In this document: positions 2 through 59,300 of the stretch, piece after piece
Layout: each line of letters opens with the position of its first letter
How positions within the stretch are numbered: position 1 is the first letter of the stretch
Assembly (NCBI GenBank): GCA_947172415.1
Contig: OX359198.1
Span: forward strand, 465,401 to 529,400
Direction: 5' to 3'
From: Chondrosia reniformis
Lineage: Eukaryota > Porifera > Demospongiae > Chondrillida > Chondrillidae
Length of the DNA: 64,000 bases
The notes under the pieces: model-generated
The model's database searches: none
Told to the model about the DNA's origin: nothing
What the model saw: only the letters and a program-made list of their open reading frames with translations
Program-made: the position numbers and the translations under genes

Positions 2-3000
2 GACAACAGTGAATTTGAATTGAAAGAAGGTCAAAATTTGGGAATTTCAATGGACAGTACAGGAGACAGATTTATAGTGAGTGCAGGTAGTGTTTTAATG
101 TACAAGACTAACATACTGTACCAAGTAATAAAAATCATGAAGGAGACAAAGATTGACTGATGAGAAGGGTGGAATTCACAAAAACAGCTGTCTGACCCAG
201 TGGAGAACGAGAAGGAGAAAACTCTTGTATTCTCATCCAAAGCTCTCACTAGGTTTAGTTCCCCATAGGCCTTCTACTCTAATGTAGATGTAGCACATTG
301 AAAAGTGTGTTAGATTATTCATGTACAGTTTCCCTACATATTTCATCATATTAAACTTCTGTATACCAAAATTTTATTTATTTGTTCTGTGAAAATGTCT
401 TTTAAAACAGAATCTATATTGTTGCATAACATTACCAAATACTGTATGTGTCCATATATAGGTGTGTGCTCATAGGCACAGGGTGATAATAGAAGACAGT
501 CGAGACTTCAGAGCAGTTGGAGGCATATGCTATGAATCTGGAAGAGGTCTGACTGGATTCACAAGACTGGAGCCTTGTATTGACAGTAGGTCCAATGGGG
601 TATACGAATATAATACGTATGTGAAAGGGATAGGATGAAACATATACGTTATCCAAATAGTCTAAAACTCATTGAATGTATGGCCAACACTAGAACCAAC
701 AATCAGTCACTGAAAAAGATCCACGGGATTGAAACATTTGACCATGAACTCAACAAGAAGAACCAACTGCATCTCCAAATGCTCTTCAAGCCTAGGGTCC
801 AGCCCTTATCATAATGTATATGCTTGTATACATCTATGAGAGGTATCAAGTATTATATCACTATACTTTATCACAGTTTGTGAGACAAGGTGTCCCTCAA
901 ATGCTTGGCTGTAAAATATAATGTGTGATGAAAAATAGGGTAATTATCCAAGAATCTGAAATTCATATATTTATCTATTCACCAGAGCTTGAGGGAGTGA
1001 ATTCTAGTATACTTGGACTAGAATTTGAATGAATTCTATTATTACTAATAATTGGGTCACTGGAACATATATTACAATTGGCATATGTCATCTGTTGCTA
1101 GGTGATCAAAACCAACAGTTGCCCTATCGTGCTCCATCTGAACAATGTGCTGCGGGATCCTCCGTCACTCTTTTAGTGAGTTATTTAAAAGTCATATTGT
1201 ATAAATGTGTCATATATTATATGGACTAATTATAGCATTGCATTGAATAATATCTTTTGGTGCTTAATTGTATGAGTGCACTAGCTTATATATGTACATA
1301 TACGTACATATATTTTAGCTAATCTGCTATCTTAATGTAGAAGCTCCAGATGGTTACATAAATAGCATTATCCATTGCTCAATTGTATATATACGTATAC
1401 TATATATAGCCTGTTTCTACAGCGCTACATGTACGTATATATATAATATGGTATTACATAATTATGATAATGATTGCAGAGAAATAGAAATGTTGCTTTT
1501 GGTGCTCCGGCTGCAGGGTTCAGATATAGAAACTTTAGAGGTGAATATAATATAAGTATATACATTATATTCAAAGTTATTTGACATTCTTTTGTACTGT
1601 CATTACACATTCTTTATACATTAATATACCTTCATATACGTACGTATACATATAATTCATCCATAAATAGTACATATAGTACGTGTTCATGATCTTGTCT
1701 TGTGTACGCAGGAGCTGATATTATCTATGATGCCAGTGCTGATGTGTACAGGTACAGCCAGCCCTTTGATCCGGAGGGACATCCCATAACTGACGAGGAC
1801 TCTGACAACCCTGCAAGTTACTCTGACTACCACAGAGGTTACGCAATAGCCCGGGGGCGGATATTTACCCGTGTCCGTGAAAGTGAAGGTGAGGGTGTAG
1901 GCACACATACACAGCAAGTGAAAGTGTTTATACATTATTTGCTGTACGTACATTACGTTTATTATATATACGTATCTCTCACCATACATTAACTTTGTGT
2001 TGGAGATTTTAGTGTGCATTAAGGGTCGTCACTCCATCAAACAGTAATATGTGAAGCTAATACTTGATGTCAGCATTCACAGACATGTATGAAACATTTG
2101 CAAAGAGTTTTAGAAATTTCAATTTTTGTTCATATTTGCCCTATCTCTCACCATACATTAACTTTGTGTTGGAGATTTTAATGTACATTAAGGGTCGTCA
2201 CTCCATCAAACAGCAATTAAGATGTGAAGCAAATACTTGATGTCAGCATTCAGAGACATGTATGAATCATTTGCAAAGAGTTTTAGAAGTTTCAATTTTT
2301 GTTCATATTTGCCCTATCTCTCACCATACATTAACTTTGTGTTGGAGATTTTAATGTACATTAAGGGTCGTCACTCCATCAAACAGCAAGATGTGAAGCC
2401 AATACTTGATGTCAGCATTCACAGACATGTATGAAACATTTGCAAAGAGTTTTAGAAGTTTCAATTTTTGTTCATATTTGCCCTATCTCTCACCATACAT
2501 TAACTTTGTGTTGGAGATTTTAATGTACATTAAGGGTCGTGACTCCATCAAACAGCAATTAAGATGTGAAGCTAATACTTGTTGTTAGCATTCACAGACA
2601 TGTATGAAACATTTGCAAAGAATTTTAGAAGTTTCATTTTTTGTTCATTTTGCCCTATCTCTCACCATACATTAACTTTGTGTTGGAGATTTTAATGTAC
2701 ATTAAGGGTCGTCACTCCATCAAACAGCAAGATGTGAAGCCAATACTTGATGTCAGCATTCACAGACATGTATGAAACATTTGCAAAGAGTTTTAGAAGT
2801 TTCAATTTTTGTTCATATTTGCCCTATCTCTCACCATACATTAACTTTGTGTTGGAGATTTTAATGTACATTAAGGGTCGTGACTCCATCAAACAGCAAT
2901 TAAGATGTGAAGCTAATACTTGATGTCAGCATTCACAGACATGTATGAAACATTTGCAAAGAGTTTTAGAAATTTCAATTTTTGTTCATATTTGCCCTAT

Positions 3001-6000
3001 CTCTCACCATACATTAACTTTGTGTTGGAGATTTTAATGTACATTAAGGGTCGTCACTCCATCAAACAGCAAGATGTGAAGCCAATACTTTATGTCAGCA
3101 TTCACAGACATGTATGAATCATTTGCAAAGAGTTTTAGAAGTTTCAATTTTTGTTCATATTTGCCCTATCTCTCACCATACATTAACTTTGTGTTGGAGA
3201 TTTTAATGTACATTAAGGGTCGTCACTCCATCAAACAGCAAGATGTGAAGCCAATATTTGATGTCAGCATTCACAGACATGTATGAAACATTTGCAAAGA
3301 GTTTTAGAAGTTTCAATTTTTGTTCATATTTGCCCTATCTCTCACCATACATTAACTTTGTGTTGGAGATTTTAATGTACATTAAGGGTCGTGACTCCAT
3401 CAAACAGCAATTAAGATGTGAAGCAAATACTTGATGTCAGCATTCACAGACATGTATGAAACATTTGCAAAGAGTTTTAGAAATTTCAATTTTTGTTCAT
3501 ATTTGCCCTATCTCTCACCATACATTAACTTTGTGTTGGAGATTTTAATGTACATTAAGGGTCGTCACTCCATCAAACAGTAATATGTGAAGCTATATAA
3601 TACTTGATGTCAGCATTCACAGACATGTATGAATCATTTCCAAAGAGTTTTAGAAATTTCAATTTTTGTTCATATTTGCCCTATCTCTCACCATACATTA
3701 ACTTTGTGTTGGAGATTTTAATGTACATTAAGGGTCGTCACTCCATCAAACAGCAAGATGTGAAGCCAATACTTGATGTCAGCATTCACAGACATGTATG
3801 AAACATTTGCAAAGAGTTTTAGAAGTTTCAATTTTTGTTCATATTTGCCCTATCTCTCACCATACATTAACTTTGTGTTGGAGATTTTAATGTACATTAA
3901 GGGTCGTCACTCCATCAAACAGCAAGATGTGAAGCCAATACTTGATGTCAGCATTCACAGACATGTATGAAACATTTGCAAAGAGTTTTAGAAGTTTCAA
4001 TTTTTGTTCATATTTGCCCTATCTCTCACCATACATTAACTTTGTGTTGGAGATTTTAATGTACATTAAGGGTCGTCACTCCATCAAACAGTAATATGTG
4101 AAGCTAATACTTTATGTCAGCATTCACAGACATGTATGAAACATTTGCAAAGAGTTTTAGAAGTTTCAATTTTTGTTCATATTTGCCCTATCTCTCACCA
4201 TACATTAACTTTGTGTTGGAGATTTTAATGTACATTAAGGGTCGTGACTCCATCAAACAGCAATTAAGATGTGAAGCAAATACTTGATGTCAGCATTCAC
4301 AGACATGTATGAAACATTTGCAAAGAGTTTTAGAAATTTCAATTTTTGTTCATATTTGCCCTATCTCTCACCATACGTACATAACACTTGTATGGTAGAT
4401 TTTTAAAGTACATTAAGGGCCGTAACTCCAACAAACAGCAAGATGTGAAGCTAATACTTGTTGTTAGCATTCACAGACATGTATGAAACATTTCCAAAGA
4501 ATTTTAGAAGTTTCATTTTTTGTTCATTTTGCCCTATCTCTCACCATACATTAACTTTGTGTTGGAAATTTTAAATGTACATTAAGGGTCGTCACTCCAT
4601 CAAACAGCAAGATGTGAAGCCAATACTTGATGTCAGCATTCACAGACATGTATGAATCATTTCCAAAGAGTTTTAGAAATTTCAATTTTTGTTCATATTT
4701 GCCCTATCTCTCACCATACATTAACTTTGTGTTGGAGATTTTAATGTACATTAAGGGTCGTAACTCCATCAAGCAGCAAGATGTGAAGCCAATACTTGAT
4801 GTCAGCATTCACAGACATGTATGAAACATTTGCAAAGAGTTTTAGAAATTTCAATTTTTGTTCATATTTGCCCTATCTCTCACCATACATTAACTTTGTG
4901 TTGGAGATTTTAATGTACATTAAGGGTCGTCACTCCATCAAATAGTAATATGTGAAGCTAATACTTGATGTCAGCATTCACAGACATGTATGAAACATTT
5001 GCAAATAGTTTTAGAAATTTCAATTTTTGTTCATATTTGCCCTATCTCTCACCATACGTACCTAACACTTGTATGGTAGATTTTTAAAGTACATTAAGGG
5101 CCGTAACTCCAACAAACAGCAAGATGTGAAGCTAATACTTGTTGTTAGCATTCACAGACATGTATGAAACATTTCCAAAGAATTTTAGAAGTTTCATTTT
5201 TTGTTCATTTTGCCCTATCTCTCACCATACATTAACTTTGTGTTGGAAATTTTAATGTACATTAAGGGTCGTCACTCCATCAAACAGCAAGATGTGAAGC
5301 CAATACTTGATGTCAGCATTCACAGACATGTATGAATCATTTCCAAAGAGTTTTAGAAATTTCAATTTTTGTTCATATTTGCCCTATCTCTCACCATACA
5401 TTAACTTTGTGTTGGAGATTTTAATGTACATTAAGGGTCGTAACTCCATCAAGCAGCAAGATGTGAAGCCAATACTTGATGTCAGCATTCACAGACATGT
5501 ATGAAACATTTCCAAAGAGTTTTAGAAATTTCAATTTTTGTTCATATTTGCCCTATCTCTCACCATACATTAACTTTGTGTTGGAGATTTTAATGTACAT
5601 TAAGGGTCGTCACTCCATCAAACAGTAATATGTGAAGCTAATACTTGATGTCAGCATTCACAGACATGTATGAAACATTTGCAAAGAGTTTTAGAAGTTT
5701 CAATTTTTGTTCATATTTGCCCTATCTCTCACCATACATTAACTTTGTGTTGGAGTTTTAATGTACATTAAGGGTCGTCACTCCATCAAACAGTAATATG
5801 TGAAGCTAATACTTGATGTCAGCATTCACAGACATGTATGAATCATTTGCAAAGAGTTTTAGAAGTTTCAATTTTTGTTCATATTTGCCCTATCTCTCAC
5901 CATACATTAACTTTGTGTTTGAAATTTTAATGTACATTAAGGGTCGTCACTCCATCAAGCAGCAAGATGTGAAGCCAATACTTTATGTCAGCATTCACAG

Positions 6001-9000
6001 ACATGTATGAAACATTTGCAAAGAGTTTTAGAAGTTTCAATTTTTGTTCATATTTGCCCTATCTGTCACCATACATTAACTTTGTATGTTAGATTTTAAT
6101 GTACATTAAGGGTCGTAACTCCATCAAACAGTAAGATGTAAAGCTAATACTTGATGTCAGCATTCACAGACATGTATGAAACATTTCCAAAGAGTTTCAG
6201 AAATTTCAATTTTTGTTCATATTTGCCCTATCTCTCACCATACGTACATAACACTTGTATGGTAGATTTTTAAAGTACATTAAGGGCCGTAACTCCAACA
6301 AACAGCAAGATGTGAAGCTAATACTTGTTGTTAGCATTCACAGACATGTATGAAACATTTCCAAAGAATTTTAGAAGTTTCATTTTTTGTTCATTTTGCC
6401 CTATCTCTCACCATACATTAACTTTGTGTTGGAAATTTTAATGTACATTAAGGGTCGTCACTCCATCAAACAGCAAGATGTGAAGCCAATACTTGATGTC
6501 AGCATTCACAGACATGTATGAATCATTTCCAAAGAGTTTTAGAAATTTCAATTTTTGTTCATATTTGCCCTATCTCTCACCATACATTAACTTTGTGTTG
6601 GAGATTTTAATGTACATTAAGGGTCGTAACTCCATCAAGCAGCAAGATGTGAAGCCAATACTTGATGTCAGCATTCACAGACATGTATGAAACATTTCCA
6701 AAGAGTTTTAGAAATTTCAATTTTTGTTCATATTTGCCCTATCTCTCACCATACATTAACTTTGTGTTGGAGATTTTAATGTACATTAAGGGTCGTAACT
6801 CCATCAAACAGTAAGATGTAAAGCTAATACTTGATGTCAGCATTCACAGACATGTATGAAACATTTCCAAAGAGTTTCAGAAGTTTCAATTTTTGTTCAT
6901 ATTTGCCCTATCTCTCACCATACATTAACTTTGTGTTGGAGATTTTAATGTACATTAAGGGTCGTCACTCCATCAAACAGTAATATGTGAAGCTAATACT
7001 TTATGTCAGCATTCACAGACATGTATGAAACATTTGCAAAGAGTTTTAGAAGTTTCAATTTTTGTTCATATTTGCCCTATCTCTCACCATACATTAACTT
7101 TGTGTTGGAGATTTTAATGTACATTAAGGGTCGTGACTCCATCAAACAGCAATTAAGATGTGAAGCAAATACTTGATGTCAGCATTCACAGACATGTATG
7201 AAACATTTGCAAAGAGTTTTAGAAATTTCAATTTTTGTTCATATTTGCCCTATCTCTCACCATACGTACATAACACTTGTATGGTAGATTTTTAAAGTAC
7301 ATTAAGGGCCGTAACTCCAACAAACAGCAAGATGTGAAGCTAATACTTGTTGTTAGCATTCACAGACATGTATGAAACATTTCCAAAGAATTTTAGAAGT
7401 TTCATTTTTTGTTCATTTTGCCCTATCTCTCACCATACATTAACTTTGTGTTGGAAATTTTAATGTACATTAAGGGTCGTCACTCCATCAAACAGCAAGA
7501 TGTGAAGCCAATACTTGATGTCAGCATTCACAGACATGTATGAATCATTTCCAAAGAGTTTTAGAAATTTCAATTTTTGTTCATATTTGCCCTATCTCTC
7601 ACCATACATTAACTTTGTGTTGGAGATTTTAATGTACATTAAGGGTCGTAACTCCATCAAGCAGCAAGATGTGAAGCCAATACTTGATGTCAGCATTCAC
7701 AGACATGTATGAAACATTTGCAAAGAGTTTTAGAAATTTCAATTTTTGTTCATATTTGCCCTATCTCTCACCATACATTAACTTTGTGTTGGAGATTTTA
7801 ATGTACATTAAGGGTCGTCACTCCATCAAATAGTAATATGTGAAGCTAATACTTGATGTCAGCATTCACAGACATGTATGAAACATTTGCAAATAGTTTT
7901 AGAAATTTCAATTTTTGTTCATATTTGCCCTATCTCTCACCATACGTACATAACACTTGTATGGTAGATTTTTAAAGTACATTAAGGGCCGTAACTCCAA
8001 CAAACAGCAAGATGTGAAGCTAATACTTGTTGTTAGCATTCACAGACATGTATGAAACATTTCCAAAGAATTTTAGAAGTTTCATTTTTTGTTCATTTTG
8101 CCCTATCTCTCACCATACATTAACTTTGTGTTGGAAATTTTAATGTACATTAAGGGTCGTCACTCCATCAAACAGCAAGATGTGAAGCCAATACTTGATG
8201 TCAGCATTCACAGACATGTATGAATCATTTCCAAAGAGTTTTAGAAATTTCAATTTTTGTTCATATTTGCCCTATCTCTCACCATACATTAACTTTGTGT
8301 TGGAGATTTTAATGTACATTAAGGGTCGTAACTCCATCAAGCAGCAAGATGTGAAGCCAATACTTGATGTCAGCATTCACAGACATGTATGAAACATTTC
8401 CAAAGAGTTTTAGAAGTTTCAATTTTTGTTCATATTTGCCCTATCTCTCACCATACATTAACTTTGTGTTGGAGATTTTAATGTACATTAAGGGTCGTCA
8501 CTCCATCAAACAGTAATATGTGAAGCTAATACTTGATGTCAGCATTCACAGACATGTATGAAACATTTGCAAAGAGTTTTAGAAGTTTCAATTTTTGTTC
8601 ATATTTGCCCTATCTCTCACCATACATTAACTTTGTGTTGGAGTTTTAATGTACATTAAGGGTCGTCACTCCATCAAACAGTAATATGTGAAGCTAATAC
8701 TTTATGTCAGCATTCACAGACATGTATGAAACATTTGCAAAGAGTTTTAGAAGTTTCAATTTTTGTTCATATTTGCCCTATCTCTCACCATACATTAACT
8801 TTGTGTTGGAGATTTTAATGTACATTAAGGGTCGTCACTCCATCAAACAGTAATATGTGAAGCTAATACTTGATGTCAGCATTCAGAGACATGTATGAAA
8901 CATTTCCAAAGAGTTTTAGAAGTTTCAATTTTTGTTCATATTTGCCCTATCTCTCACCATACATTAACTTTGTGTTGGAGATTTTAATGTACATTAAGGG

Positions 9001-12000
9001 TCGTCACTCCATCAAACAGTAATATGTGAAGCTAATACTTGATGTCAGCATTCACAGACATGTATGAATCATTTGCAAAGAGTTTTAGAAGTTTCAATTT
9101 TTGTTCATATTTGCCCTATCTCTCACCATACATTAACTTTGTGTTGGAGATTTTAATGTACATTAAGGGTCGTAACTCCATCAAGCAGCAAGATGTGAAG
9201 CCAATACTTGATGTCAGCATTCACAGACATGTATGAAACATTTCCAAAGAGTTTTAGAAGTTTCAATTTTTGTTCATATTTGCCCTATCTCTCACCATAC
9301 ATTAACTTTGTGTTGGAGATTTTAATGTACATTAAGGGTCGTCACTCCATCAAACAGTAATATGTGAAGCTAATACTTGATGTCAGCATTCACAGACATG
9401 TATGAAACATTTGCAAAGAGTTTTAGAAGTTTCAATTTTTGTTCATATTTGCCCTATCTCTCACCATACATTAACTTTGTGTTGGAGTTTTAATGTACAT
9501 TAAGGGTCGTCACTCCATCAAACAGTAATATGTGAAGCTAATACTTTATGTCAGCATTCACAGACATGTATGAAACATTTGCAAAGAGTTTTAGAAGTTT
9601 CAATTTTTGTTCATATTTGCCCTATCTCTCACCATACATTAACTTTGTGTTGGAGATTTTAATGTACATTAAGGGTCGTCACTCCATCAAACAGTAATAT
9701 GTGAAGCTAATACTTGATGTCAGCATTCAGAGACATGTATGAAACATTTCCAAAGAGTTTTAGAAGTTTCAATTTTTGTTCATATTTGCCCTATCTCTCA
9801 CCATACATTAACTTTGTGTTGGAGATTTTAATGTACATTAAGGGTCGTCACTCCATCAAACAGTAATATGTGAAGCTAATACTTGATGTCAGCATTCACA
9901 GACATGTATGAATCATTTGCAAAGAGTTTTAGAAGTTTCAATTTTTGTTCATATTTGCCCTATCTCTCACCATACATTAACTTTGTGTTGGAAATTTTAA
10001 TGTACATTAAGGGTCGTCACTCCATCAAGCAGCAAGATGTGAAGCCAATACTTTATGTCAGCATTCACAGACATGTATGAAACATTTGCAAAGAGTTTTA
10101 GAAGTTTCAATTTTTGTTCATATTTGCCCTATCTGTCACCATACATTAACTTTGTATGTTAGATTTTAATGTACATTAAGGGTCGTAACTCCATCAAACA
10201 GTAAGATGTAAAGCTAATACTTGATGTCAGCATTCACAGACATGTATGAAACATTTCCAAAGAGTTTCAGAAATTTCAATTTTTGTTCATATTTGCCCTA
10301 TCTCTCACCATACGTACATAACACTTGTATGGTAGATTTTTAAAGTACATTAAGGGCCGTAACTCCAACAAACAGCAAGATGTGAAGCTAATACTTGTTG
10401 TTAGCATTCACAGACATGTATGAAACATTTCCAAAGAATTTTAGAAGTTTCATTTTTTGTTCATTTTGCCCTATCTCTCACCATACATTAACTTTGTGTT
10501 GGAAATTTTAATGTACATTAAGGGTTGTCACTCCATCAAACAGCAAGATGTGAAGCCAATACTTGATGTCAGCATTCACAGACATGTATGAATCATTTCC
10601 AAAGAGTTTTAGAAATTTCAATTTTTGTTCATATTTGCCCTATCTCTCACCATACATTAACTTTGTGTTGGAGATTTTAATGTACATTAAGGGTCGTAAC
10701 TCCATCAAGCAGCAAGATGTGAAGCCAATACTTGATGTCAGCATTCACAGACATGTATGAAACATTTCCAAAGAGTTTTAGAAATTTCAATTTTTGTTCA
10801 TATTTGCCCTATCTCTCACCATACGTACATTAACTTTGTGTTGGAGATTTTAATGTACATTAAGGGTCGTAACTCCATCAAACAGTAAGATGTAAAGCTA
10901 ATACTTGATGTCAGCATTCACAGACATGTATGAAACATTTCCAAAGAGTTTCAGAAATTTCAATTTTTGTTCATATTTGCCCTATCTCTCACCATACGTA
11001 CATAACACTTGTATGGTAGATTTTTAAAGTACATTAAGGGCCGTAACTCCAACAAACAGCAAGATGTGAAGCCAATACTTGTTGTTAGCATTCACAGACA
11101 TGTATGAAACATTTCCAAAGAATTTTAGAAGTTTCAATTTTTGTTCATATTTGCCCTATCTCTCACCATACATTACGTATGGTGAGAGATAGGGCAAATT
11201 AGAATAGATATCAAAATTTGCAAAACTCAATGAAAACCTTACATACATCTCTGTGAATACTGAGATAGAGTTTCAGATTCATATCTTTTCATTTGGAAGA
11301 GTTACAGCACCATAATGTACATTAAATTTCTACTATACGACCTTTAATGGTGTAGCATTTATATCGTGCGATACTATTATGGAAATTATCGGCATACCAA
11401 GTTTAAATGATTTGACATGAATGGGACAACCAGAAACACGCAGGGACAGTCCAGAACGCAGCTATCTGAAGGCCTTTACATAGAGGCCGGTAGCCATTAT
11501 ACTATTACAGCAATTGAGATTGAGTGTGGCTGGTTATACTAGTTTACCTTCATATCGGAACACCTCTCGCAAAAATCGTTTCTACATGGGACCAGAAAAG
11601 TAGTTCTCCTCCGCCAATCTAGACACTTACAGGATTCTATCCATTTTTCCCAGTTTCTAGATGAACCACAAATACTGGATATACCTTTAAAATGGCTTGG
11701 AACGATGCACTGATCCCGAATTAACTTGATATAATTTGACTACATTTTTCTCGCAAATACCCTATTCTTAAGTATGGAATAGCGCCAACCACAATCGTTT
11801 ACTTTTGAAATTTTGTTGTTTAAATAGAAGCGCAAAACCTTATAAAGTAGGCCTACCTGGACACATCTCTATGGTGGTTGCGGTTCCCATAGAGGTTGGT
11901 AGCGCTTAGACTCTGAAGCTGTCTCCTAATCGGTTGGTGCCATAGAGACGTGACCTATTGCTCACCAATAATCCGGATTTCGGGGGGGTTCCACGTAATG

Positions 12001-15000
12001 TGGGATTGGCATCTGATATCTTAGGATTCATATGAGTCGGCCATATCGAGAAGAACTGGTTCTTCTCACGCAAGTGACACCCAAAGCTCAACTCGGCAGA
12101 GCGTTACCACCGATCCCGGCCTCTGAGCGTCGTGGATGGTAGCGTTCGGTATGGTCCAACTGTTTTTCTTTGGAGTTTCGTTGGCCGTCGATCGGCAAAA
12201 TTTCACTTTAACGACATCCATATAATGTATGTGGATAAATACTGCTTCAACAACAATCAAGTACTATACAGTGCATATCCATGTGTATAAGAAATCTTTG
12301 GAAGCGCTCTAGTTATTCGGATATACATATATTATAGTATCGCATTTGGTACCTACTCACGGTCGGCCATTTATAGTATTGTACAATTATCGTATATATA
12401 AATTTAATACACATTTATTGCTGTAACTCTTTCAAACACCAACATATGAAGCTAATACTTGATGTCAGCATTCACAGACATGTATGAAACATTTGCAAAG
12501 AGTTTTAGAAGTTTCAATTTTTGTTCATATTTGCCCTACGTACTGTGTACATTTAGTGTAATCTGTATATACTATTGTATATATACTGTGTACATTTGTA
12601 CATTTGTACTATTGTATATATACTGTGTACATTTAGTGTAATCTGTACTATTGTATATATACTGTATACATTTGTACTATTGTATATATACTGTATACAT
12701 TTGTACTATTGTGTATATACTGTATACATTTGTACTATTGTGTATATACTGTGTACATTTAGTGTAATCTGTATATACTATTGTATATATACTGCACAAA
12801 ATATAATATACTATACCTACGTATACTGTTGTTAAGCTCTATATCTCCTATATTAGATATAATTGTAGGAATGCCTCGAGGTCTACGTGGGAGCTATTTA
12901 GGAGCGGTAAGTTTCACACCGTGCTGATCCATCTATACATCTAAAACATCACTATTTCCTTGGCAGGTGGGAATACATAGCTATACCGTTGAGACTAGAA
13001 CTTTAACAATTGTTAATGATTTTCGACGACGTGCAACATACATATCCAGATTGACATTTATTGCTGAAGGCGAGCAGGTGGGTGATTAACACATGGACTC
13101 AGTTGCTATAGCAACTCCCTTTGATATGTACATAGAGCACTGTTGGGGGATTAGCTCTAATTTCCAATTTTATTCATTTTGTTTATTGTGACAGCTGGCC
13201 AGTTATTTTGGCGGGAGTGTGGCGGCAGTGGACCTGAACAACGATGGGTTTGATGAAGTGTTGGTGGGCGCACCGCTGTACACATTTGATCACAGGGGAT
13301 CACCTGAAGCCGGGAAAGTGACAGTCTACCTGAACCAACAAGGCTCCCTGAATGAACAGAACAAGATTGATATAAATGGGCCGATGAAGGCCTATGCTCG
13401 ATTTGGACACGCTATGACTGGAATAGGAGATGTAAATGGGGATCAATTCAATGGTAATCATTTCTTATCCATCCGCCCACCCATCCACTTATCCACCCAT
13501 CCACCCACCCATCCATCCACCCATCCACCACTCTGTCCATTAAATCCAGATGTTGCTATCAGTGCTCCGTTCAAGTTTGGTGCTGACCAGATGGATAACT
13601 TTGCTGGTGCTGTTTACATATATTTGGGATCAGTAGCAGGCATCCAGACCACTCCTGGTCAAGTTATCATGGGGAATTCCCTTAATCTGCAACCAAGTAT
13701 CCTGTCTGGACTGGTAGGGTTTGGGGCTCATCTTTTTTCTGCTGATGTTGATAACAATGGTTTCCAAGGTAACCAGATTTAGTACAAGATTGTTCCTAAC
13801 TCAATCAATGCTATATTGTAACTGTATTTATACAGACTTGTTAATTGGTGCTTTTCAGTCAAGGAAAGTGGTTGTCTTAAGGTACATTTCATTACTCAAC
13901 CAATAGACTGACCAGTCCTGCATGTGTTAAAGTATTTAGCTGTTTCTTCTTGAAACCATTAGAACGAGACCCATCCTTAATATTGAGACTTCTTTGACAT
14001 CTAATGTGACCTCCGTGTCAGAGAAGGACAGTTGCTTAATCAGTGGCATGGCAACCACATGGTAGGGACACTCCCTGTGATGTACCTTTAGACATACATT
14101 CTATCGTATACCATACTTGTATTCTTTAATCAATATATCTGTCATCTATATTTTGTAGTTTTGCAGTTGAAGTGTGTTTTAGTCTTAGCGGTAGAGGATT
14201 CAGGAATAACCAACTATTTGGTAAGCATTCTGTGAACCGTCTTCACATTCCTAGAAAGGTCTTTATATCTTACATGTATATATAATATATGTATGTATAC
14301 TTTTTGACTGCAGATGTTAAGTATAATCTCACGGCTGATGCTCGACTAACTTTTCCTGAAACTGGAGGATCATTTCTTCAAAACACAATTCCGAATCAAG
14401 TTGGTAATGCTCCAACTTGTGAAAGTCATCTGGTGCTTCTGAATGTAAGTAAGGCATGTGACCTACATGTGACAATCATGTGACTAACTGTACATTTTAT
14501 GCTTCTCTTTATAGATTAATGTGATTGACTTGGATGGTCCCATCACAGTGAGCACATCTCCTTTCCTGACAGATGATGCAGTCCAGCTTTCAGCTTCAAA
14601 TGGGAATGAGGATCCGGCAGATCTAGCAGACAGACCTGCTCGTCAGGTATCAGGTCAGAGACTAGTTACAGTGAGTAATTGTTTGTGTATATTCTGTTAT
14701 AAGGTATAAGGATAAGGATATAAGGTATAAGGATAAGGATATAAGGTATAAGGATAAGGATATAAGGTATAAGGTATAAGGATATAAGGTATAAGGATAA
14801 GGTATAAGGATAAGGATATAAGGTATAAGGTATAAGGATAAGGATATAAGGTATAAGGATAAGGTATAAGGATAAGGTATAAGGATAAGGATATAAGGTA
14901 TAAGGATAAGGTATAAGGATAAGGTATAAGGATAAGGATATAAGGTATAAGGATAAGGTATAAGGATAAGGTATAAGGATAAGGATATAAGGTATAAGGA

Positions 15001-26781: not shown

Positions 26782-29700
26782 TCAGTTCTTCATGAAAAGC
26801 TTTTTAAAATCGTCATTTGACATTCCTGCTTGTACAGGTGCAGTATCTTTGTCTTCCTCAGCTGCTGGAGAGGAGGAGGAGGGCTTGACACTGCCCACCT
26901 GGACCTTAGTGTGACGGCGGGACCTATAGAGTGCAAATAATTTTTCTTCATTCCTTCACTATACAACTCCACGCATGCGTAAACATGACAATACCATATA
27001 TGGAAACATTTTCTACTTACACTGCAGTTGGAATCAGTCTCGGTGGGGGCATTTCCTTCCTGCCTGCACCTGATGTTTCCATGGCAACAGTACTCCTCCC
27101 CTTCTTGGGAGGGTTAGATATGGCCACTGATATAGTCCTTCCCTCCAGGAGTGATTCATTCAACTTGAGGACAGCACCTGAGGCAGCAGTCTGGAACAAT
27201 GAGATATGATTGGACAGTATACAATACAGTATACTCACAACTGTACACTGTATTGAATATGTAGTATATACACAAATTGAACATGATAACACACAAACTA
27301 CAGACATAATCCTATATTCAGTCCATGTTCGTTATCAGTAATTGATGAGCATGCAAAGTTACGTACAACGTAAGCGTAACTACATACAGTAGAGGAAGAA
27401 AGTCTGGATCAATCAGACATCTAATGGTTATTAGAGTTCTACCTTACTCTATTACATGCAGATTATCATGGAGACAGTCTACTTCACTGCCTTACTTGAG
27501 TCCATGTCCAATAACAAGAAAAGATTAATGAACGCAAGAACATGCTTAATTGTGTTTATAAGACATTAGAAGACCTTGATCTACCTATCCTAGTACACAA
27601 ATACAACTCAATTAGGGGTAGCCATAGATTGTCAGAGCTCTTACAAGTACTTATAAGTTGGGAATGTCCCTTGGGAACCACCAGTGGAATGTAAACAAAC
27701 TATCTAGTCACGTTTGTTAATTATGATAGGAACAGGGCTACTACAGCACAATCTGTAATACAATTCACTACCTCACCTCCTCCTCAAATTCCACGTAAGC
27801 AATTCCCTTTCTCCTCCCCTTGCTGTGAGTGACCATTCTCACCTGTTTTACTGTTCCTACCTGTATGACAGATGACACAGTGACTGATCTGTATGACAGA
27901 TGACACAGTGACTGATCTGTATGACAGATGACACAGTGACTGATCTGTATGACAGATGACACAGTGACTGATACGCACAGTCAGTATATTCACTTGACTG
28001 ACACAGTATGACCATCAATAAATGATATTACTTATGTACAAATACGTAGTATAAAATATAATCTATTTTATTGGACAATCTAGCACACTATCACGTATAG
28101 ATCAAACTTCCAATTATTGCAACGTTTCGCCCATCTCGGAACACTCAGCATGCCTAACAATTGTCATAATAAATAGTGTAAAACTTGAGAAGTGAAACTC
28201 TAAACAGAGTCTCGACTACGTAGTTGCAGAGGAGGAGAATCAGATATGAATGTATTAACAATAACTGATAATTATTTAGAGCATCAGCAACACTTATTGA
28301 ACACGTTTGAATGTTTCGACCCTTGGGTCTTTATCAGCAGAAGTCAAACAACTACATATTCAAAATCTTTGTAAGCGATCAGCTTTACTAGTCGCAGCTA
28401 TGAGGTTGACAACAAAACCATAAACAAATACACTTGCACTTGCATGAGATCAAGATGTTGTTACAAAACTACTTGTTGTAACTATATAAACTTTGAAAGT
28501 CAAAAGATCTCTCAATTACCTCATTGACAAAGATTGCAAAGTAATTGTGTTAGGACAATTTAATTATATTGAGTGAATACCTGTTGGAACAGATCCTTCA
28601 CTTTATCTTCGTCTTGTGAAAATGGTAAGTTGGACACAAACACTGTATTCTTGTCAATTCCACTTGGAAACTAAATATATGAAATAGAAATGGCAGCCAG
28701 AACTGGTCAATGTATAGTGAGTGTGCTCTACAACAATCTAAAATAACAGATGTTGATACTTGTATAGATACTACGGTTCCTAATTAAAGGGGCTTACCCT
28801 AGGGGCAGGTTTCTCCACCTTTTCCTTCTTCTGGCTGTCACATGGGGACACGTACACTTGACGACCATAAAAGGAAGTTCTATCCATTAACAAAGCACTC
28901 TCTACTGCTGCCTGTAATAAGATATAATAAATTGCAGACACATGTAGTTGTTACCATGGCAACTGTAGTGCCCCCGCAAACTTTTATCGGGTTACATTTC
29001 AAATATGGAAATCCAGATTGGGAATGCTCACTTTATTAGAAAACTGAACATAAGCATAGGCAAAAGGTTTTGGGGATTTTCCCTTTTTAGACTTGACCAC
29101 CCTGACGTCCTCAATATCTCCGCAGTTGCCAAATATGGTCTGTACTTCACTGCTCTTTGTAACAAACGGCAGGTTGCTTACAAATACCGTTCGTACATCA
29201 TCAGCTACTGTTGGAGGGCGTGTCTCAGAAAGAGGTGTGGCTTTATCAGCCATAGCCTCAGACTCTGGCACTGAAGCTGTATAATACATTCATAGATGAG
29301 ATAATTATATTCATAGATGAGATAATTATATTCATATACCTTTACTTCTCTTTGCTGATGGTACACCATCATCTTTACCAGAAGTGGGTGTGGCATTATT
29401 GGAGCCAGAAAGAGGCGTGTCATCATCACACTGAGTGGATGCATATAGTGAAATATTAGTACATTCATAGCATGACATGGATACCATATCAGGATGGCAG
29501 AGGTGAATTAATAAAGAAATGTTCACTTTAATAAAGTCTTTGAACTGTCGTTTCCTTCCTAGTCTTTCAGTCTTATTCTCTTCACTTCTTCCATCCTTGA
29601 TCTTTCTCCTCCTCTGCAAAGTGAAAACACAACATATATGCAATACACTATAAGGTATATGTAATACATAATATATAGATACATACATAAATACATTTAG

Positions 29701-32700
29701 AGGCCAATCAATATGTAGAATCTAATAAACACCACCAGTTTACCATTTCCTTCTCTCTAGGTTCGGCCATCTTTTCCTTCTTCCTTTCCAGTTTCTCTCT
29801 TTTTGCACAGATCCTTTCCTCAGCCGTCACAACACTGTCAAGACTTCCCTCCAACCTCTCAAAACTCAGAAAGGACTCAAACACCTTTTCTGCATCATCG
29901 TATACTCTATCAACAGCACGTTTGTACAAGGAGAGACACTTTGTCTTGTCACCATGGTACCTGATGGTGAGAGAAAGATTAGGAAAGATTAAGAGTAGAG
30001 AATTCATCTTTTCAAAAGAAGTGATTCATCTTAATAAATCTCTATCATAAGGTATGCTCTACTAGACCTGACTTGGCTAGTACAATTGTACAATCACCTT
30101 TCTAGATTGACGTACTCCAGCCACATTTCAGCTCTGGAAGAATTACTCTTGAGAATCTCCTCATACAATTCTCTGCTCCTATCCAGGTTGCCAAGGTAAC
30201 GAGCCTCAATCTGTGCCTCATACCTATGTAGGGTCCACTTGGGATCCCCTTCAGCTCCAAATTCTGAAATAAATACACATATTGATATATAGGTAGTACT
30301 AATGTTGCACAACATTGCGTAACTTTTACAAGTATGGCAGTTCTGTAAAAAGTGACTGACTGTCAAAGAGACTCTTTTTTGCTCTTTTAAAGATCTTTCT
30401 CAGTTTCTTTACATCTAGTGACTCCTTTGCATTCCAGTCTACCACTGCTCTCTGTTTATACTCACAGTAACACATCCACATCCGGAGATGGTCCCCGGGG
30501 GTCGAAAAGTTACCAGATAAAGCTTTCTCGAAATTTACTAAACAATTGAATTTAAAAATGAGAGTAATGTAGACATGACCATATTTAGCTGACCAATCAC
30601 TTCATCCCTCTCAGATCCCATTCTCTCGATGGCCCTCACAAGACTGATCCACAACTCAGCAGACCAGGGACAGTTTCTGACCGATCGGTGATGAGCAGAC
30701 AGAACTATCTCCTTAACTTTCAAAGAGGAGTCCTACGAGCAATGAGACACAGAGTGTTACAAAAACAATAGACAATAGGAGATCACATGCAGGGTAATAA
30801 TAATGAATAATAAAGGAGACTACAGAAGACTATACACGTGCTTATACAATCAATACGTAGGTAATGCAGTTTGTCAAATAATATAAAACATGGACAGACT
30901 TGCTCTACATCTGCTATATTCTCTGAAATCAAACTGAACAATCTAATTTATAGTAGGGAAATACATTGCCTATATTAGTTGTAGGAAGTACTATATAGAT
31001 GTCACTACACACAGTATTCAATGGGAGACTAGTACATAACATACGTATGACTTCTCCCGGACATGATCAGTGATTACCATACCATGCCATACATAATTAT
31101 TTAACAGGATGCACTATATGTATGTACATATATGTAGTTCTGATTACCAGATGCTTGAGATATTCCAACCAGAGATCGTCCTTCAGACAATGAACTGATA
31201 GTGCCCTCTCGTAGAGACAAGAGATTCTTGCTAAATCTTTACACTTCAGCTCATACAAAATGTACTCTCTAAATGTCTCCAATGATGGCACCTCTGACAT
31301 GCTCTAATTGGACAGAGGGAGGGCAGTGGAGGGGCAAGAGAAAGGGGGAGGGGCAAGAGAAAGGGGGAGGGGCAGGAGAAAGGGGGAGGGGCAGGAGAAA
31401 GGGGAGGGGCAAGAGAAGGGGGAGGGGCAGGAGAAAGGGGAGGGGCAAGAGAAGGGGGATGGGCAAGAGAAAGGGGAGGGGCAAGAGAAGGGGGAGGGGC
31501 AAGAGAAAGGGGAGGGGCAAGAGAAAGAGGGAGGGGCAAGAGAAAGGGGGGAGCAAGAGAAGGGGGATGGGCAAGAGAAAGGGGGAGGGGCAAGAGAAAG
31601 GGGGGAGCAAGAGAAAGAGGGAGGGGCAAGAGAAAGGGGGGAGCAAGAGAAAGGGGATGGGCAAGAGAAAGAGGGAGGGGCAAGAGAAAGGGGGGAGCAA
31701 GAGAAGGGGGATGGGCAAGAGAAAGAGGGAGGGGCAGGAGAAAGGGGGAGGGGGAGGGGCAGGAGAAAGGGGGGGAGCAAGAGAAGGGGGATGGGCAAGA
31801 GAAAGGGGGGAGCAAGAGAAGGGGGATGGGCAAGAGAAAGAGGGAGGGGCAGGAGAAAGGGGGGGGAGCAAGAGAAAGGGGATGGGCAAGAGAAAGGGGA
31901 GGAGCAAGAGAAGGGGGATGGGCAAGAGAAAGGGGAGGGGCAGGAGAAAGGGGAGGGGCAAGAGAAGGGGGATGGGCAAGAGAAAGGGGAGGGGCAGGAG
32001 AAAGGGGAGGGGCAGAAAGAAGGGAGAGGGGCAGGAGAAAGGGGAGGGGCAGGAGAAAGGGGAGGGGCAGGAAGAAGGGAGAGGGGCAAGAGAAAGGGGG
32101 AGGGGCAGGAGAAAGGGGGGGAGCAAGAGAAAGGGGAGGGGAAGGAGAAAAGGGGAGGAGCAAAAAGATGGATAAACTGACCAACTCTTTTTCAAAAGGT
32201 TCAATTTCCTTTAATTTCTTCAAAGCCATTCCGTAAGTCTGTAATTTATTTTCATCCATCACTTCACTGCCAAATTCATTGTACTCTACCAGTGTAGATT
32301 CCATGCCTAGCAAATTAATATAAATACAAGAGAGGGGTATCACTTACCTAGGAGGGGTATCACTTACCTAGGAGGGGTATCACTTACCTAGGAGGGGTAT
32401 CACTTACCTAGGAGGGGTATCACTTACCTAGGAGGGGTATCACTTACCTAGGAGGGGTATCACTTACCTAGGAGGGGTATCACTTACCTAGGAGGGGTAT
32501 CACTTACCTAGGAGGGGTATCACTTACCTAGGAGGGGTATCGCCAACTGTCTCTTGAACAACTTATCTACTCTGTCATACTGAGCTTTTCTGTTGGAAAT
32601 ATCACAATTCATGTTAAACAGTATAATGTACTGTACCAGGATTTAAATACTTACATGCTTTTAACTAGCTCTTCATCACTCTCTTCCTCCTGCTGCATGC

Positions 32701-56300: not shown

Positions 56301-59300
56301 TATAGTGCTTGGAGACAGATTGCACAATGGGATTTGTTTCCCATGGCAACACAGAATCCTGCCCTATGATTGCAGCTGTCCAGCCAATGAATGTCTATAT
56401 TGTAGAATAACTTAGTGTTTCTGGTTAAAATTGTTGAGTGTGAGATTAACAGGTCAGAAAAGTGCACAATGAGCATAGGAAATGCTTCCTTTAGCCTTTG
56501 CCTTGTAAACAGTCTCAGTGTACAGCCTTTGCCTTGTAAACAGTCTCAGTGTACAGCCTTTGCCTTGTAAACAGTCTCAGTGTACAGCCTTTGCCTTGTA
56601 AACAGTCTCAGTGTACAGCCTTTGCCTTGTAAACAGTCTCAGTGTACAGCCTTTGCCTTGTAAACAGTCTCAGTGTACAGCCTTTGCCTTGTAAACAGTC
56701 TCAGTGTACAGCCTTTGCCTTGTAAACAGTCTCAGTGTACAGCCTTTGCCTTGTAAACAGTCTCAGTGTACAGCCTTTGCCTTGTAAACAGTCTCAGTGT
56801 ACAGCCTTTGCCTTGTAAACAGTCTCAGTGTACAGCCTTTGCCTTGTAAACAGTCTCAGTGTACAGCCTTTGGTCACATGAGAACACTCACAAAAGTGCT
56901 CTGTGGTTACGCTTTTGTTTGGGAACTACCACTAGTAATGGGATTAGGGTGATGTACACAGTGTATTGTATGAGGGTCCCCTAGGGAAGTAGACTTCACA
57001 AGTGTCTTTAGAAGACAAAGAGTGTTTACATTTGGAGAGTGTTTGTCTAACCAAATGCAAACTGGGAAGAGCAACTAACAATATACTGTACCTGTATATA
57101 GCACAATGGATAATTATATTCATAGCATTATCCCTTTTAATGAAATTCATTATCTACCTAAGTGTGTCCAGTCTACCTCCTATTGATTATGTAGACAGTA
57201 GGTAGATCCATTTAAACTAGTTATCTTTGCCTACCCCACTCTGATTAATCTGTAGGGAAGTGTCTACTTCCTAGAAACAGTAAATGAAACACCATATACA
57301 GTGGGCCCTGCTAAACACATACCCTATTATTTCCGGGATATTTAATTATCCAATTTGTGGCATACTAGCCTGCCTTTTTGTATAGATACTTTTGCCATTA
57401 ATATGTTGGGAAATGCTTAATTTGGGAAATGCTGTATTTCCAGATTATTATGTACATACATACGTATGTAGGGGAAAACCCATGAGGTTTTGGATAAGAT
57501 GTATATGTAATGGAAAAATATATGTAGCTAAGAATATAAGAATATACATACCTTTATAGGCATGTTAGGATGTTTTAAATTTGTAGTTTGTATGCATAGT
57601 GTTTGATTGGTATAATGTCTGTATATAGGCTAACAAAGCATTCCTCACCGATTGGGACAAGACAATGGAGGACCCGTCCCGCTTGTGGAAGAGTCCGCGG
57701 TTTAAGAATGCCATTGTGGTCTATCCTGTCCACACCTTTGCAGTCATGCGCGGCCTACATCACTACTACATGCACCACAAGGTTCAAATGATTCAGAGCG
57801 TCATTAAAGAACACTACCACGGACCCATGGTGGACACTTGTCAGCTGACGCCTCAGAAACTGCTTCCAAAAGGTATGACATCATCGCCCAGCTACTGCAA
57901 CGAGCAAGCCCAGTCCTGCTACCCTCTGCAGTATCACTACTACACACGACCCTACCCTGATATGGATCCTTACAAACCAGACAGTCGACATGATCTCTCT
58001 GAATGGATGTTTTTCGATGAAAATAAAATCTACCTCAATGATAATGATCACCCTGTAGTTGGAAAGACTGGAGAGTTTAACGAGAAGCTGAGAAACCTTA
58101 TTCACGATATTAAGGGCGTTCTCAATGCAAAGGATAAGAACCCCATTACTGGTCTAAAGATATTGAGTGGATTTTTTCGTGAAGACAGTCACAGAGGAAG
58201 AGAGATATTAGTTGACATTGAAATGACAAATTACACTGTTAGTAAAGGCGGCTCAATGACCAAAGCAAAGATCCAACAGCGTGTGGAACTGATTCAACCA
58301 GTCTCGCGCCAACTGAACATTGAACTGGAAAATGTCTTTATCACTCAAACCCTCAATGTGATTCTACCTCTAGTAAAGGGAAATCAGGTTCGTGAGCGAT
58401 TTAGCTTCTTTATGAAACAGTACAGTGAGTCTATTCTGGCAAAGAATGGTGATGCTCGATTGATTGTGGTTGTGTATGGTACGGAGGCCTTATCTGCAGC
58501 CAATGACCTCATCCAACCTTACCTAGAGAAATATTCCATGGCTAAAGCTGTCATAGTCCCAGCCGATGATCAGTACTCTTACACTTCTGCTGTGAATTCG
58601 GCACTGAAAGAAGTCCCCCCTAAGGAGCTAATTTACATTGCCGATGTGGACACTTCAATTAGAAGTGATTTTGTGATGCGATGTAGAAAGACTAGCATTC
58701 AAGGCAAAAGGGTCTATGTTCCAGTCCCATTCCAACTTTACAATGACTCTTACACTTATAAAATGAAAGTCAGACCGGCAGTAACTTTCATCTCCCGTGA
58801 TGCAGGTTTTTGGGACGAGGATAATCTAGACCACATGTGTATCTACAAGACGGATCTGGTGGTGGCCCAAACTGCCGCAAAGTATGTCGATAGCAGACCT
58901 CCACAGGGGAGTTCGGGGTACATACTGGCAGGAGCCATGAAGCAAGGTCTCCAGATCCTGAGGGCCCCAGATCCAGGTTTAATGAGGTTGCATCAACCAA
59001 AAATATGTTCGTCCTGGATGGATCCACCAACTGCAAAAGCTTGCAAAAAGTGGTCAAACCAGAACCTCGCTGACCGAAGAGATTTAGCAGTATATTTACA
59101 AAAATTGGAAGATCATTTTGAAAGCAACAGTTGGAGTATACGACACATAGACAGACGAAAGAAGTAGTGATAATTACACAACAAATACACTTCATTGTTG
59201 ACGAGAGGATATTATATTCAATTCTTTATTTTTAAACTAACAAATTATTAATTGTAGACGTTGACCTTTTTTATCTGAACACTTAACAATGTTTATCAGG

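Follow-up and report, generated by a model that had tools for sequence, protein, structure and literature searches.

Does a transposable element that lies next to a satellite array, and whose ends resemble the array monomer, have to be the source of that array? The question is raised by a locus of the demosponge Chondrosia reniformis, for which a stretch of 64,000 nucleotides (hereafter the window) was analyzed. The window spans 465401-529400 of contig C10 in an assembly of 117,379,552 bp and contains a tandem array of 9 kb that is abutted by an element of 1.37 kb. An earlier note on this DNA had proposed that the terminal inverted repeat (TIR) of the element seeded the array.

Architecture of the locus

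The array was detected by TRF at 1973-11175 with a period of 169, 54.1 copies and 93% matches. The mean identity among its 54 monomers is 94.7% and the minimum 86.9%, and it is thus a long, homogenized head-to-tail array of the kind that defines satellite DNA. The adjoining element consists of a left terminal repeat (LT), a core and a right terminal repeat (RT) (Table 1). Its inverted-repeat ends were found close to where the earlier note had placed them: the segments 11190-11309 and 12419-12538 form a repeat of 120 nt with 75% complementarity around the core, which is flanked by a second pair at 11314-11332 and 12397-12415 (19 nt, 84%) and contains a short inverted repeat at 11367-11380 and 12331-12344. 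Local alignment of the reversed LT with RT gave a score of 112, and the highest score of 500 shuffles was 27.

Table 1. Features of the array and the adjoining element (positions in the window)
Feature	Position	Strand	Basis
Family-A satellite array, 54 monomers of ~169 bp	1973..11174	+	TRF and monomer families
Head-to-head junction of last array monomer and left element end	11157..11193	.	
Left terminal repeat (LT), inverted family-B monomer	11175..11339	-	
Core, ~1.05 kb	11340..12390	+	
Core tract of apparent exchange	11840..12189	.	50-bp identity windows
Broken remnant of a 129-codon frame that is intact in some other copies	11856..12221	-	
Inner part of the right terminal repeat (RT), dissimilar to the array	12391..12450	+	40/60 to family A, 47/60 to LT
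RT, outer part, equal to the family A consensus at 87/88 sites	12451..12538	+	

The array had also been described as intronic. This position is plausible, since the frame 13192-13779 matches FG-GAP (Pfam), a domain of the integrin-alpha type; the frame 1693-1989 on the other side of the array gave no Pfam match, so that intron status is supported from one side only. The window also contains three minisatellites with units that are 100% identical, at 27861-27972 (28 bp x 4), 32332-32541 (20 bp x 10.5) and 56493-56872 (31 bp x 12.3).

Affinities of the two element ends

LT and RT share 71.6% and 84.2% identity, respectively, with the array monomers. The monomer is thus homologous to both terminal repeats, as is expected of TIR-derived satellite DNA, and the two forms adjoin, as had been noticed earlier; the statement that they are the same sequence goes too far, as the ends are not copies of the monomer. 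It also holds that divergence is larger for the ends than among the monomers, and this difference reflects a mixture of families and not an older status as source.

RT is a mosaic. Its outer 88 nt correspond to family A (87/88), and its inner 60 nt are different (40/60) and nearer to LT (47/60). In a tree of the outer columns RT and the A monomers of the array are intermingled, and in a tree of the inner columns they form separate groups, each with an SH-aLRT support of 100. Because the outer 88 nt match and the inner 60 nt fail to do so, the A monomers are not copies of the RT in the window. LT belongs to family B, where it forms a clade with most of the monomers located left of B-type cores (25 rows, support 92/98) in a tree that sampled 10 of the 23 A-type left ends. 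Its identity to B monomers away from cores is on average 88.4% and at best 92.7%. The A-type copies are uniform in this respect: the left ends that could be labelled, 23 in number, were all assigned to family B, and the 20 right ends with a label all belong to the RT group. The grouping of LT and RT in a single clade was rejected (p-AU 0.006), in a test that is weakened because RT is recombinant and whose groups had been defined with knowledge of an earlier tree. The trees were built without an outgroup. LT and RT are not a matched pair, the two ends being derived from two satellite families, and the A monomers of the window array do not appear to have descended from the ends of the element next to them.

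Monomer families and core copies in the genome

A total of 768 monomers, taken from 804 profile matches, was grouped at 17% distance. Family A is the largest with 443 members (mean identity 91.8%), followed by B (173), D (50), E (31), an RT-like group (23), F (20) and C (17), plus small groups. The consensus sequences of families A, B, C, D, E and F are 74-84% identical to each other, and family B forms arrays elsewhere in the genome. Array matches of equal score were found 3,070 bp apart on C3, which we count in favor of local duplication.

Long matches to the core number at least 40 in the genome, as determined from 40 of 977 first-look candidates that were scored. The close ones fall into class A, with 97-100%, and class B, with about 94-95%, and more distant cores (76-89%) are found beside or beyond copies of these classes. 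The loci examined were selected by core or array matches and contain 60 core segments of at least 200 bp, in which a monomer adjoins 45 of the 52 assessable left ends and 52 of the 55 assessable right ends. All 57 assessable copies carry a monomer at one end at least, and core copies lacking it, which the earlier note had named as an observation that would speak against its idea, were not found among them.

Core-bearing loci lie toward the chromosome ends: of 91 loci, 61 are in the outer 40% of their chromosome and 11 in the central 40%. This count considered loci at least 100 kb apart, derived from 108 positions that are a subset of the best matches in lists of limited length, and used rounded lengths for chromosomes 4, 5 and 8.

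Junctions and orientation of the flanking monomers

Of the left junctions of 24 A-type copies, 22 are of one kind: 15 are identical, 6 carry a duplication of GTAC and 1 a substitution. C10b_7964 and C3a_15925 have different left junctions. The right junction is common to 22 of 23 A-type copies, and the exception, C7_25632, is interrupted by an insertion. These common junctions suggest a shared founding event and subsequent spread together with the flanking monomers. The right junction CGTATATA into A arrays was also found at 3 of 32 non-A right ends, namely, in C3a_3852, C3c_13583 and L044_1301. In these three copies more of the right monomer is A-like than in A-type copies, and in the latter two the rest of the core is distant (80% to the window core). 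Either A has been a long-standing right neighbor, or right ends have been exchanged. Another arrangement is that of L029, in which B monomers, core, RT and A monomers follow each other and both ends of which are placed beside the A elements in the tree; it is plausible that L029 is an intermediate.

In B-type units, TATGG is preceded by close variants of GGGTTAGCTAATG, regardless of whether the following monomer is of family B, C or F. That these variants are kept while the neighboring family varies by locus suggests, from the comparison of sequences, that LT and core may move between arrays in phase, as inter-array recombination would do. Many B-type cores end in TTAGGGTTAGC at the right, for example L034 near 2760; this motif resembles the animal telomere repeat, possibly by chance.

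The inner cut points of the two terminal repeats are at mirror positions, LT being cut at TATACG and RT at CGTATA. Among the copies labelled on both sides, the flank order is LT-RT in the A-type, L029 and C3a_3852 and LT-LT in the B-type and C7_4247; as judged by eye, it is LT-RT in L045 and RT-RT in L040, L041 and L044. In the A-type, L029, C3a_3852 and L045, a middle domain lies between long inverted terminal repeats, and flanks are direct in the B-type copies, L040, L041, L043 and L044. The inward order RT-LT was seen neither among the copies labelled on both sides nor among those judged by eye. A TIR ancestor would explain that this order is missing from what are few independent arrangements.

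A core segment shared between distant copies

In 50-bp windows, the core tract listed in Table 1 is 95-99% identical to up to eight distant cores, as compared to 51-89% for the remaining windows of the core. The segment of ~350 bp is ~97% identical between families, and the rest of the core 77-80%. The corresponding counts for segment and rest of the window core are 344/352 and 323/402 with respect to L044, 343/352 and 306/395 with respect to L045, and 341/351 and 489/621 with respect to L040. Synonymous sites were found to vary no more than other sites.

The trees of the segment and of the rest of the core are incongruent, which suggests exchange, and several individual copies appear as chimeras. 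C3a_3852 combines a rest of the A lineage with an L044-type segment (380/381), C3c_13583 a rest resembling L044 with a segment that matches its neighbors (351/352), and L029_4347 a distant rest with a segment near that of the neighboring core (349/352). C7_4247 has a distant rest and a B-type segment (348/352 to C6_L006), and its segment matches that of L042, to which the rest of its core is related, at 339/345. These calls combine alignment, trees and pairwise counts with a string test for a 28-bp stretch, which wrongly scores the spanning copies L041, L043 and likely L046 as lacking it. Ectopic exchange of the segment among families is the simplest reading of these alignments, and the segment may be under a constraint that acts on the DNA or RNA itself.

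Candidate functions of the core

The window core contains no stop-to-stop frame of more than 70 aa. A 129-codon minus-strand frame is open in some distant cores, for example at L044:683-1069, and is broken in the aligned A- and B-type copies. Pairwise comparison of its four intact versions revealed 0-1 synonymous and 1-13 non-synonymous changes, and neither Pfam nor PDB gave a match up to E=1, so that constraint on a protein is unsupported and a protein-coding core was rejected.

Fold z-scores on the two strands were -3.7 and -3.0 for the conserved segment of L044 and -1.6 and +0.3 for most of the window core. No Rfam family reached its gathering score in the window, and L044 gave no match at a cutoff of E=1. 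In 10900-12600 there are 17 weak matches, each of which overlaps the palindromic junction of array and element and falls far short of its gathering score. The conserved segment may contain a structured RNA. Most likely, the composite of array and element is selfish satellite DNA.

Block ends and insertions

By eye, TACGTA is common to both edges of the block in the window, and no target-site duplication (TSD) was seen at the C3b and L045 blocks. With calibrated extension, 19 of 42 block ends lie near the monomer terminus as compared to 6.0 expected, where the null was based on 36 flanks with a maximum of 82.5, presumably due to one flank containing a monomer, and where the left edges of C3a and C3b are counted as terminal despite extra terminal nucleotides beyond. 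Loose extension reduced the number to 9 of 42. A linear profile placed 25 of 45 block ends at the TIR terminus when blocks with at least two features were considered, and 29 of 59 overall, counts that are inflated because short partial monomers are missed. The clustering of block ends at the TIR terminus is suggestive only.

Several other structures were observed in these arrays. L017-L018 (C10:579058-589642) is a near-symmetric inverted block of 10.6 kb that is composed of arrays and cores and stops at both outer ends at the same place of RT, monomer column 106-107. The array edges at L027 near 1138 (C3:147138) and from L035:4418 onward adjoin, by eye, the same foreign sequence CGGTACAAATCATAATAAAGTAAACG, which meets the arrays at a TA of the monomer junction and is perhaps another mobile repeat that targets the satellite. 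In L011-L012 (C7, about 6913620-6923846) an A array is interrupted by roughly 10.2 kb with inverted ends CACTGCAAGAA...GGGCA (by eye), which looks like a separate DNA transposon. At L022:1633-3906 (C13:5679632-5681905) a core copy is interrupted by an insertion of 2.27 kb, which by eye has the ends TGTCACAG and CTGTGACA, is bordered by CCGG on either side and resembles a clean transposon insertion.

Origin of the composite

We consider it fairly probable that a unit of LT and core became linked by recombination to an A satellite that was already present, with which it then spread, and that the window element was not the seed of the window array. Array and element would then be parts of one composite satellite system: the LT and core of the window element would come from the B lineage, the array to which they are joined from family A, and the right end would be a chimera with an A monomer. 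The A satellite would be older than this joining, which would have taken place on one or a few occasions. The composite may have multiplied locally by segmental duplication inside arrays and may have spread between loci with neighboring monomers, either by ectopic recombination or by reinsertion of array pieces, and ectopic gene conversion may have kept the core segment uniform across families. Against this explanation we count the CGTATATA junction in three non-A cores, the inner part of RT that is nearer to LT, the inverted flanks of the distant L045 copy, the clustering of block ends, and the differing left junctions of C10b_7964 and C3a_15925.

Most of these observations agree with a history to which we assign somewhat less than an even chance. 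A foldback-like transposon with TIRs of ~170 bp would have spread first, its arms would have grown into tandem arrays that diverged into distinct satellite families, the right arm into A and the left arm into B, and the window would be a late recombinant. The monomer length is near that of the terminal repeats, the flanks are inverted and outward in the A-type, L029, C3a_3852 and L045, the inward order is missing from the copies labelled on both sides, and LT and RT are cut at mirror positions. The right junction shared by three non-A cores is predicted by such TIR arms, the affinity of the RT inner part to LT is expected of a TIR pair, and the inverted repeat inside the core and the 19 of 42 block ends near a monomer terminus point in the same direction. 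However, neither a standalone TIR element nor a convincing TSD was seen in the examined loci, the clustering of block ends depends on the method, and many copies have direct rather than inverted flanks. An ancient TIR origin of the whole monomer superfamily is possible and is favored by some junction evidence. It appears rather unlikely that six or more satellite families all go back to one ancient element with long TIRs, with each arm becoming a satellite of its own, the core segment staying near-identical through exchange and the end repeats being continually replaced from the satellites.

A possible but doubtful alternative is that the 170-bp satellite is older and that the core was inserted or captured, in which case the TIR appearance would be a by-product of inverted arrays. 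This agrees with the presence of the core among monomers in all 57 assessable copies, with the nesting of the LT clade in B array monomers in the midpoint-rooted tree and with B-type units being in phase with the arrays. However, the rooting is by midpoint only, the loci were chosen via core or array matches, and it would have to be by coincidence that LT and RT are mirror images at their inner ends.

The seeding of the window array by the TIR of the window element, as proposed in the earlier note on the basis of homology and adjacency of monomer and ends, is improbable: RT is a mosaic whose inner part is absent from the A monomers, LT belongs to another family, a clade of LT and RT was rejected, and the junctions are common to most A-type copies. 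It could be salvaged if the inner part of RT had been overwritten after seeding, for example from LT-like sequence. A rolling-circle (Helitron/Helentron-like) element with internal tandem repeats is very improbable, since arrays lie on both sides of the core, even though such elements carry satellite-like arrays, such as Cg170/HindIII (PMC12628747), and the window block, by eye, starts and ends in nearly complementary monomer parts.

Relation to known systems

Open-access full text yielded no paper on satellite DNA of Chondrosia or of demosponges. Foldback (FB) elements have ends that contain tandem sub-repeats, and the likeness of the sponge element to FB and Galileo is one of structure. As outlined in PMC4079207, both have long inverted ends around a middle domain, like the sponge element. 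The closest precedent is Tetris of Drosophila virilis, a non-coding element with ~220-bp tandem repeats (TIR-220) in its inverted ends, which also form long arrays; the repeats within complete elements are 87% alike and the rest 94% (PMC4079207). End repeats that also occur as arrays, and a larger divergence of the repeats within elements, are thus common to Tetris and the sponge. Tetris differs by an extra outer domain, TSDs of 8-10 bp and a single repeat family (PMC4079207), whereas in the sponge the monomer extends to the terminus, one core is common to several families and the two ends are from different families. It had been claimed that both forms are rarely caught side by side; they do adjoin here, but Tetris provides a precedent.

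Two further systems are covered in the accessible portion of the review PMC12628747. In the Xstir MITE of Xenopus, element, array and composite forms coexist as in the sponge, but its repeat is derived from the MITE interior, whereas the sponge repeat is an element end. The oyster Cg170/HindIII occurs in element-linked, standalone and one-sided satellite forms, also as in the sponge, but is linked to Helitron components, and inverted terminal monomers are not described for it in that portion.

Since TIRs have already been described as a source of satellite DNA, for Tetris (PMC4079207) and in a review (PMC12628747), what is of interest in the sponge system is that several families make up its architecture and that the element ends come from two of them. 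An element with inverted satellite copies on both sides need not be the parent of the satellite, and its ends can stem from two families. With its many sister arrays, traceable junctions and chimeras, this sponge allows the exchange between satellite and element to be followed event by event.
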